A stretch of 64,000 nucleotides of DNA from an uncultured Sunxiuqinia sp. (GTDB lineage Bacteria; Bacteroidota; Bacteroidia; Bacteroidales; Prolixibacteraceae), in NCBI RefSeq assembly GCF_963678245.1, contig NZ_OY782774.1:124001-188000 (forward strand). Reading direction: 5' to 3'. The notes beneath the pieces are model-generated. The model was not told the DNA's origin. It did no database searches and saw only the letters and a program-made list of their open reading frames with translations. The position numbers and the translations under genes were made by a program. Below, piece after piece: positions 1-56,105 of the stretch (the first letter of the stretch is position 1; every line of letters begins with the position of its first letter).

Positions 1-129
1 GTCAATTTGACTAAAAACTTACAGAGTGATGGCGCTAAGTCTAAAGTTCGGAATGTAGTAGAGACTGTAAAAACAGAGTCGTCAGCAAAAACAAACTATG
101 TGAAGACACTTGGAATGTTTCGATTATAA
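1..129 (+). CDS. C-terminal end of an unidentified protein (partial)
   Basis: Frame 1 is open from the window edge and ends at TAA 127-129, giving the last 42 residues of a protein that begins outside the window. The tail is polar and Lys/Ser/Thr-rich and ends in GMFRL. No domain can be recognised. It lies 116 nt upstream of the injection-system tape-measure gene on the same strand, so it is probably another member of that locus, but this is inferred from position only. Confidence 0.5.
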   Translation, partial: VNLTKNLQSDGAKSKVRNVVETVKTESSAKTNYVKTLGMFRL

Positions 130-54489: not shown

Positions 54490-54957
54490 TTATTTGATAA
54501 CGATCTGGCTTTCGCTTGTAATCTTTTCACAGTACATGCATTTCAGTGCTATTGGCTCTTTTGAGGTCACTTTAAAAGAAGTGGTGATTGGTTCCGCATT
54601 GGTAATACACTTTGGGTTAAAACATTTTACAATGCCAATTACCTGGTTTGGAACTTCAACAACTTTCTTTTCAACAACTTCGTAATCTTTAATGATGTTA
54701 AGTTTGGCATGTGGTGCAATCAATGCAATTTTGTTGATGTCGTCATTTTCAAAAAACTGATTGGAAACCTTAATAATCGCCTTATTAATAAGCTTATCAC
54801 TGTCCAGATTGGCTCCAAAGGTGATCATATTTGGAGTTTTGTCTAATTCGAGAATGGAAATAACATCGAATAAGTTTTCGGATGGAATATGGTCAATAAC
54901 AGTGCCTTCGCTAATGGCACTGACTTTCAGTTTTAGTTTCTTTTTGTGTTCACTCAT
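54490..54957 (-). CDS. pyrI: Aspartate carbamoyltransferase regulatory subunit
   Basis: 155 residues. The N-terminal allosteric domain (LKVSAISEGTVIDHIPSENLFDV) binds nucleotide effectors. The C-terminal zinc domain has the four cysteines at 112, 117, 140 and 143 (KCFNPKC, KCMYC) that hold it to PyrB. Its presence shows the E. coli-type dodecameric ATCase. It lies 6 nt after pyrB as a two-gene operon. Confidence 0.94.
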   Translation of the reverse strand: MSEHKKKLKLKVSAISEGTVIDHIPSENLFDVISILELDKTPNMITFGANLDSDKLINKAIIKVSNQFFENDDINKIALIAPHAKLNIIKDYEVVEKKVVEVPNQVIGIVKCFNPKCITNAEPITTSFKVTSKEPIALKCMYCEKITSESQIVIK

Positions 54958-54963
54958 GGCTGA

Positions 54964-55875
54964 TTACTTTAAATTTAAGGCATGTGCTATAATTGCTTCT
55001 CGGGTAAAAACACCATTTAAGGCTTGTTGAAAATAGTAGGCTTTCTCGTTTTTATCGACGTCAGTCGCAATTTCGTTTACACGAGGTAGTGGGTGCAGAA
55101 TGCGCATGTTTGGCTTCGTATTTTCAAGCATGCTGTTTCTTAAAATGTATACGTTTTTAACTTCTTCGTATTCCATCGGATCAGAGAAACGTTCTTTCTG
55201 AACCCGAGTCATGTATACAATGTCAGCTTCTGAAATAATGTCGGTAAATTCGAGGTGCTCAAAAAAGCGGATTCCTTTTTCGCGTAGGTAGATTTTGTAC
55301 TCCTCGGGCATTAAAAGCTCCTCGGGTGCAATAAAGTTAAAAATAGGATTCTCAAATTGCGACATAGCCATTAGTAGCGAATGAACGGTTCGTCCGTATC
55401 GTAAATCGCCAACCATGAAGATGTTTAGGTCATCGAATGTGTTTTGTGTTTTCAATATGGAGTACATATCCAATAAGGTCTGAGTCGGATGTTGGTTTGC
55501 TCCATCACCTGCATTGATCACCGGCACTGATGAAACCTCTGCTGCGTAACGAGCACTTCCCTCCAGTGGGTGCCGCATGACAATCAAATCAGCATACTGT
55601 GAAACCATTCGAATCGTATCATGCAGTGTCTCACCTTTAGTAACACTGGAAGAGCCTGCATCCGAAAAGCCAACGATTCGCCCACCCATGCGGTTTATGG
55701 CTGTTTCAAAACTTAGCCGGGTGCGCGTCGATGGCTCAAAAAAGAGCGAAGCAACCACTTTCCCCTCCAGTAATTTTTGGTTGGGATTCTTTTCAAAATC
55801 AGCTGCCAGATCCATTATTTGAAGGTGTTCTTCCTTCGAATAATCCATGATGGAAATCAAGTCTTTTTTATTCAT
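54964..55875 (-). CDS. pyrB: Aspartate carbamoyltransferase catalytic subunit
   Basis: 303 residues. Condenses carbamoyl phosphate with aspartate, the first committed step of pyrimidine synthesis. Carbamoyl-phosphate binding motif [13 protein letters not shown] near residues 48-60, [14 protein letters not shown] (mobile loop), [10 protein letters not shown] (~131), RYGRTVHSL, and the aspartate-site HPLPRVNEI (~265). The leader upstream contains a translated ORF and terminator that look like a pyrBI attenuator (see 55898-56090). Confidence 0.95.
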
Positions 55876-55897
55876 GCGATCTTTTTATTAAGGTTTC

Positions 55898-55936
55898 AAA
55901 AAAAAACCAACAGGATTAAAAATCCTATTGGTTTTT
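55898..55936 (-). terminator. Intrinsic terminator/attenuator in the pyrBI leader
   Basis: On the minus strand a 15-of-16-bp stem (55936-55921 with 55917-55902, single mismatch, 3-nt loop) ends in nine consecutive U residues (55906-55898). Only 22 nt separate the U-run from the pyrB ATG. That is too little for a promoter, so transcription of pyrBI must read through this site. Confidence 0.8.
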
Positions 55937-56090
55937 ACTTCCCGGGATAAAGGCCGGTAGTAGAATTATGTGTTGAGCAAAAGCTTCTATCAAAAAAATA
56001 AGTGATGCAACGTTCAACGAATGGGAAAAAAATTGTCAGGTGATCCTGATCACCTCGTTGGGAATTATATTGAACGATTAAACGCTTCAT
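55935..56090 (-). CDS. Candidate pyrBI leader peptide
   Basis: A 51-codon ORF on the minus strand, ATG 56090 to TAA 55937-55935. It encodes MKRLIVQYNSQRGDQDHL, then TIFFPFVERCITYFFDRSF. Two Phe-rich blocks coincide with U7 tracts (56032-56026 and 55998-55992). The stop codon touches the base of the terminator stem (55936). The enterobacterial PyrL leader likewise carries an FFFP-type block and ends at its attenuator. Between the ATG and the first U7 tract there is a 7-bp hairpin (56055-56038). It overlaps no other gene. The ribosome site is weak, as is usual in Bacteroidota. Confidence 0.65.
   Translation of the reverse strand: MKRLIVQYNSQRGDQDHLTIFFPFVERCITYFFDRSFCSTHNSTTGLYPGK
56026..56055 (-). 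promoter_or_regulatory. Candidate RNA polymerase pause hairpin and U7 tract in the pyrBI leader
   Basis: Minus strand AGGTGAT (56055-56049), loop CAGG, ATCACCT (56044-56038), then GACAA and seven T residues (56032-56026). A hairpin followed by a U tract inside a translated leader is the layout of the UTP-sensitive pause region in pyrBI attenuation. Confidence 0.5.
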
Positions 56091-56097
56091 CAAAACT

Positions 56098-56105
56098 CAA
56101 AATTA
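56098..56105 (-). promoter_or_regulatory. Putative -7 element of the pyrBI leader transcript
   Basis: TAATTTTG on the minus strand matches TAnnTTTG exactly and ends 7 nt before the leader ATG at 56090. The transcript would start at or next to that ATG. The TTTG element at 19 nt is missing. Confidence 0.35.

Follow-up and report, generated by a model that had tools for sequence, protein, structure and literature searches.

A probable translation-coupled, UTP-linked attenuator with a possible start-codon gate ahead of pyrBI in Bacteroidales

In the trp and his leaders, a hairpin serves as a synchronising pause. The closest described counterpart of the locus analysed here is the E. coli pyrBI leader, with its leader ORF pyrL (b4246). 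According to PMC5021804, tight coupling across this leader is needed to prevent the terminator from forming, and the pause mapped in one study is reported to be unlikely to rely on NusA or on an RNA hairpin and to precede the pause of earlier work by about 24 nt (PMC9291695). A second relevant system is the leaderless rnTrpL of Sinorhizobium meliloti, an attenuated RNA that starts at the leader ATG (PMC7298713), much as we predict below, although it leads the trp operon, a different operon in a different phylum. The titles and abstract openings that we surveyed on Bacteroid- pyr attenuation and on attenuation generally, a survey outside of which the classic pyrBI work falls, mention no attenuator or start-codon helix of the kind described here.

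The 64,000-nucleotide stretch of DNA that was analysed, referred to as the window, carries pyrB and pyrI on the minus strand. The preliminary description had named pyrBI as the target of a leader at this site, and this assignment was confirmed, since PyrB and PyrI score above the TIGR00670 and TIGR00240 cut-offs. The genome is Prolixibacteraceae-like and close to Sunxiuqinia indica, a record of which matches the window PyrB at 100% identity (rounded). Base-by-base reading located each of the elements listed in that description, namely the box, short ORF, hairpin, T tracts and terminator, at its minus-strand position. Beyond these, we found a helix over the leader start codon (P0), a hairpin at the terminator base (H2) and a very short predicted 5' UTR. 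The features are as follows.

56098-56105, minus strand: leader promoter -7 box TAATTTTG, read directly, with consensus and spacing as given in PMC9723704 and PMC6847099
55935-56090, minus strand: leader ORF of 51 codons, ATG at 56090, stop TAA at 55937-55935, at the stem base of the terminator
56077-56092, minus strand: 5' arm of P0 over the leader start codon, from the whole-leader fold, arm swaps and covariation
56038-56055, minus strand: H1, a pause-like 7-bp hairpin AGGTGAT-CAGG-ATCACCT, read directly and backed by covariation and a synonymous control
56023-56032, minus strand: pyrimidine tract TTTTTTTCCC, T7 at 56032-56026 and then CCC, a predicted pause region
56003-56018, minus strand: 3' arm of P0, the anti-start strand, made right after the pyrimidine tract
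55992-55998, minus strand: second T7 tract, read directly
55942-55957, minus strand: H2, seen by eye and as a near-set stability peak
55898-55936, minus strand: predicted intrinsic terminator (attenuator), -17.9 kcal/mol, with T9 at 55906-55898
54964-55875, minus strand: pyrB, aspartate carbamoyltransferase catalytic chain
54490-54957, minus strand: pyrI, regulatory chain

In the RNA, the order is start codon, H1, pyrimidine tract, anti-start strand, H2 and terminator, and 22 nt separate T9 from the pyrB ATG at 55875. We interpret the pyrBI leader as a translation-coupled transcription attenuator that is probably linked to UTP and equipped with a start-codon gate (probability about 0.68). As judged by comparison among relatives, the leader is a real, conserved and attenuator-like element; this comparison covers the frame, H1, the tract, P0 (in the near set defined below) and the terminator. 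We infer the RNA start, the pausing, the loading and following of the ribosome, and UTP as the signal. Our confidence is high for the parts, moderate for the gate and lower for UTP as the signal.

We compared the window leader to that of E. coli MG1655. Both precede pyrBI, and in both the leader ORF reaches to or through the terminator. Measured from the ATG, the hairpin and the following pyrimidine tract occupy +32..+50 and +60..+70 in E. coli (placed by hand) and +35..+53 and +58..+67 in the window, so that the E. coli tract TTTTTCTTCCC lies at nearly the same distance from the start. Ribosome entry to the leader is predicted to be hidden in both, in E. coli by base pairs between the Shine-Dalgarno region and the tract itself, and in the window by a separate anti-start strand. 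The E. coli pairing appears in a single-sequence fold of pyrL, with a z of -3.3 for the part before the terminator. The 5' UTR is predicted to span 0-5 nt in 100 of 103 leaders here, compared to 18 nt with a GGAGG in E. coli, where we take the RNA to start at AATTTG, and the TAnnTTTG promoter is unlike that of E. coli pyrBI. To our knowledge, Bacteroidales mRNAs lack Shine-Dalgarno sequences.

The leader peptide showed no significant similarity to PyrL (BLASTP E 0.57) and no match in Pfam or NCBIfam up to E 10. Rfam gave no match at the gathering score for the window and six loci of relatives, and seven weak matches below threshold in the leader stretch. The element lies before pyrB-pyrI, its ORF reaches the terminator and an intrinsic terminator sits just before pyrB, as in a PyrL-type attenuator; as no peptide homology was found, it is classed as working like PyrL and not as a homologue. 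Thus, the PyrL-type reading put forward in the preliminary description stands for its logic, which is well supported comparatively by the leader frame, H1, the tract, the terminator and the rarity of a second promoter box, but not for a sequence relation to PyrL or for a conserved peptide.

Conservation was assessed around pyrB in related genomes. PyrB searches returned matches in 94 of 100 genomes of the family and 189 of 198 of the order, whereas only 7 of 149 genomes of the class, own genome included, matched at E 1e-80; the pyrB of this element is therefore mainly a Bacteroidales gene. A scan of named contigs for pyrB gave 50 loci. We took in 93 of 96 family matches and the best-scoring part of the order matches (28 loci and 77 stretches). 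After orientation, the set comprised 255 sequences (the window twice), 231 of them non-identical, with pyrI beside pyrB in 247 of the 255. We used the 228 non-identical loci with at least 150 nt upstream of pyrB. A strong terminator lies within 180 nt of pyrB in 132 of these and is absent in 96; where PyrB is at least 80% identical to that of the window, 64 of 67 loci possess one. Leaders were sought at the 132 terminator loci by a TAnnTTTG-like box (score at least 5 of 6) placed 4-12 nt ahead of an ATG, and this combination was found at 106 and missing in 26. The leader ATG was chosen by the box alone and not by ORF length, an approach adopted in place of earlier ORF filters, which had missed leaders reading through the terminator. 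The near set consists of the 62 open leaders that accompany a PyrB with 80% or more identity to that of the window, and the far set of the remaining 41, some of which belong to the same family. Among the named holders beyond Prolixibacteraceae are Labilibaculum, Butyricimonas and Paludibacter MAGs. The Paludibacter-type leaders (L062-L065, L067, L069-L072) have 26-32 codons and a stop near the terminator base. Several of them have a hairpin without a clear tract after it, so their design may differ.

The position of the box predicts an RNA that begins almost at the leader start codon. Of 103 leaders, 58 have a box-to-ATG gap of 7 nt, and in 100 the gap falls within 4-9 nt. The TAnnTTTG box of Flavobacterium is reported to span -12 to -5 (PMC9723704), and promoters were accepted when the start lay 4-5 nt past the box (PMC6847099). 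By this spacing, the window RNA is predicted to start 2-3 nt before the leader ATG, and the start codon to fall 0-5 nt from the RNA 5' end in 100 of the 103 leaders. Few transcripts of the phylum have 5' UTRs this short: those below 10 nt are given as about 3.7% in B. thetaiotaomicron (PMC7366714), leaderless transcripts as 5.5% in F. psychrophilum (PMC9723704), and in F. johnsoniae 13% of leaders do not exceed 10 nt while 87% do (PMC6847099). Two controls lacked this arrangement. At the 96 pyrB loci without a terminator, an exact box was found within 160 nt in 39, the nearest being at least 15 nt from the pyrB ATG in all of them, and in the own genome the box-to-ATG gap is 20 nt for the his leader, 15 nt for trp (where the box is a poor match) and 18 nt for leu. 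A transcription start beyond the terminator, the finding that the preliminary description had said would count against it, has little counterpart among the promoter boxes, as an exact TAnnTTTG between terminator and pyrB is rare (6 of 126 loci).

Of 106 leaders, 103 keep the leader frame open as far as the terminator, compared to 0 and 10 for the other two frames and 9.5 expected from base shuffles. With one leader per cluster (41 clusters at 65% identity), 38 are open and the other frames give 0 and 7. In the three closed leaders the stop lies 110-135 nt ahead of the stem. The stops of the 103 open leaders fall 1-11 nt before the stem in 7, in its first 24 nt in 26 and further on in 70, and in 19 the stop overlaps the pyrB ATG by 4 nt. 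The encoded peptide is another matter. No residue is conserved over codons 2-40 in the near set, and pN/pS is about 0.64 over 16 close leader pairs, with a value of 1.3, resting on 6 changes, for the pair that includes the window's own leader; the peptide does not clearly appear to be under purifying selection. Since the peptide sequence drifts, what is kept is an open frame. The alignment of relatives proposed in the preliminary description thus recovered a kept frame and terminator, without a clear synonymous bias of the changes, and conservation of the peptide itself was not borne out.

Hairpin registers shift between clades, so we named each structure and counted its pairs, and added register-free synonymous controls. 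For H1, 58 of the 62 near-set leaders were aligned (A1), leaving out L104, L105, L107 and L110, which had no clear H1; alignments A2 and A3 include all 62. All 6 of the H1 pairs are altered on both sides, with 50 double-changed cells compared to 18.3 in shuffles and 15-24 when the arms are slid. Two of five covariation measures are not distinct from shuffles (pairs changed on both sides, reached by 62 of 500; pair types, by 116 of 500), and RNAalifold predicted no pairs on A1. With the protein held fixed, near-set H1 is 2.4-3.0 kcal/mol more stable than its synonymous versions (t -8 to -11, n=59) in windows starting 30-36 nt past the ATG, and a less pronounced peak is seen at 30-39 nt in the far set (n=36); this control omits 3 near-set and 5 far-set leaders with a stop before the stem. 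In a synonymous control with 45-nt windows, applied to 100 of the 103 leaders, the mean z reached just -0.75. Among cluster representatives from both sets (n=34), 76% pass -1 kcal/mol at H1, compared to 26% at other positions. H1 covaries in these Bacteroidales leaders, whereas the mapped E. coli pyrL pause is reported as unlikely to be hairpin-dependent (PMC9291695). Measured from the ATG, the median position of the H1 3' end is 54 nt, and the stretch 10-23 nt past it is 66-89% pyrimidine in 61 near-set leaders; the far set has no clear pyrimidine tract there.

In a fold of the complete window leader, the start codon is paired with 56018-56003. Across the near-set leaders, the native P0 arms pair at -10.06 kcal/mol compared to -6.81 kcal/mol when arms are swapped between leaders (n=61, t -6.1), the signal arising mainly in windows within ATG+66..98. 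Over all 62 near-set leaders, 10 of 10 pairs are altered on both sides and double-changed cells number 59, compared to 35.4 +- 5.5 in shuffles (reached by 0 of 500) and 19-39 in slid controls; the pair count is reached by 14 of 500 shuffles. The same helix is made of different letters in different leaders, as individual examples illustrate. When the 3' arm (ATG+72..96) is resampled synonymously, an average of 2.9 kcal/mol is lost (t -7.4, n=61). Of the 62 near-set leaders, 39 have a P0 over the ATG that reaches -8 kcal/mol or better and has its partner at ATG+66..86. The best partner falls where expected in 44 of the 62 leaders and in 11 of 19 representatives, compared to about 21% by chance. 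With one leader per cluster the effect is weaker (14 of 18 beat the swapped mean, t -2.5), P0 is weak in some clades, and in the far set it was not clearly seen by the arm-swap and synonymous tests (t -2.1 and -1.5 at best).

The terminator is recovered by a consensus fold of the near-set leaders, with 9 of 14 pairs altered on both sides in at least one leader, and the terminator pattern occurs once in the genome. The synonymous control revealed extra stability at the terminator base, where H2 lies, in the near set and not in the far set. A single fold of the window leader accommodates P0, H1, H2 and the terminator together, which makes a competing antiterminator unnecessary and gives no hint of an exchange between terminator and antiterminator; a ribosome would disrupt this group of structures. 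By eye, the H2 hairpin seems to be kept with different letters in each clade (CCGG/CCGG, AAAAG/CTTTT). As a separate observation, none of the 62 near-set leaders departs from CCA..TTGG in the core of the terminator stem, a constancy greater than termination would require, and the frame in which this core is read differs between leaders.

We propose that the RNA would begin within a few nucleotides of the leader ATG, and that the polymerase would make H1 and next enter the U/C tract. When UTP, and perhaps CTP, is scarce, the polymerase would dwell in the tract, the anti-start strand would not yet be made and the start codon would be free. A ribosome could then load at the 5' end, translate through H1 and trail the polymerase closely, covering the 5' arm of the terminator or beyond, and pyrBI would be transcribed. 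When pyrimidines are plentiful, the polymerase would move on, the next strand would pair with the start codon as P0 and no ribosome would load; H2 and the terminator would then form and transcription would stop. In its kinetic form, which we advance tentatively and at slightly less than even odds, the sensor is the time that the polymerase spends in the tract between the 5'-terminal AUG and the anti-AUG strand, and the outcome depends on whether ribosome loading precedes the synthesis of that strand. E. coli pyrBI may gate likewise, through its Shine-Dalgarno region and its own tract, and the two phyla may have reached this solution independently.

The explanation that overlaps most with this one differs in the gate alone: P0 might protect the 5' end or stabilise the leader RNA, the switch being the plain PyrL race. 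The weakness of P0 in some clades is in its favour, yet P0 covaries, and the strong form found in 39 of the 62 near-set leaders places its partner just past the tract, so we hold this version to be doubtful. Alternatively, the same ribosome-coupled attenuator might sense ribosome supply or the rate of translation and not UTP, with H1 merely a synchronising pause. The nearly fixed distance of H1 from the start, and a leader ORF that reaches or covers the terminator, would suit such a device, whereas the pyrimidine tract past H1 and the pyrBI target fit nucleotide sensing; far-set leaders show no clear tract. We regard a ribosome-supply sensor as unlikely overall.

Two further explanations would dispense with nucleotide sensing by a coupled ribosome. 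The hairpin before pyrB could simply terminate a transcript from upstream while pyrB has its own promoter, or could end a small RNA. A leader RNA of about 190 nt would indeed be released at the terminator, but the paucity of exact boxes between terminator and pyrB (6 of 126 loci) and the conservation of the frame, H1 and P0 make this explanation highly improbable, though the released RNA may additionally act in trans. We give still less credence to a Phe-rich leader peptide that senses an amino acid. Phe is the commonest residue at several leader positions, but codons 2-40 contain no position with a conserved residue, and the combination of a control codon run with a stop upstream of the terminator, which marks amino-acid attenuators, was not found. 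The leader stop lies at or past the terminator base, so ribosome stalling would favour termination, and the window-leader fold contains no competing antiterminator. The his, trp and leu leaders of the own genome are alike in having a leader peptide and a terminator, but differ in their box-to-ATG gap (15-20 nt), in their runs of His, Trp and Leu/Ile codons and in stopping 26-42 nt before the terminator (36, 26 and 42 nt, respectively).

If the attenuator reading is correct, ribosome-coupled nucleotide attenuation extends to Bacteroidales, and close coupling of transcription and translation is predicted in this order. P0 would provide a concrete switch point, ribosome loading, beyond a mere race to the terminator.

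Finally, we inspected other leaders of the own genome. Leader peptides of classical appearance (L262, L263 and L264) precede hisG (HHH), a trpE-like gene (WWW) and leuA. No terminator was found upstream of pyrE, and the terminator upstream of pyrG was set aside as it appears to end the preceding gene. The carA start (L259) is preceded at short distance by a hairpin that resembles a terminator and by a T-run, and a 13-codon ORF (MNVLEVLKYDGEE) is found upstream.
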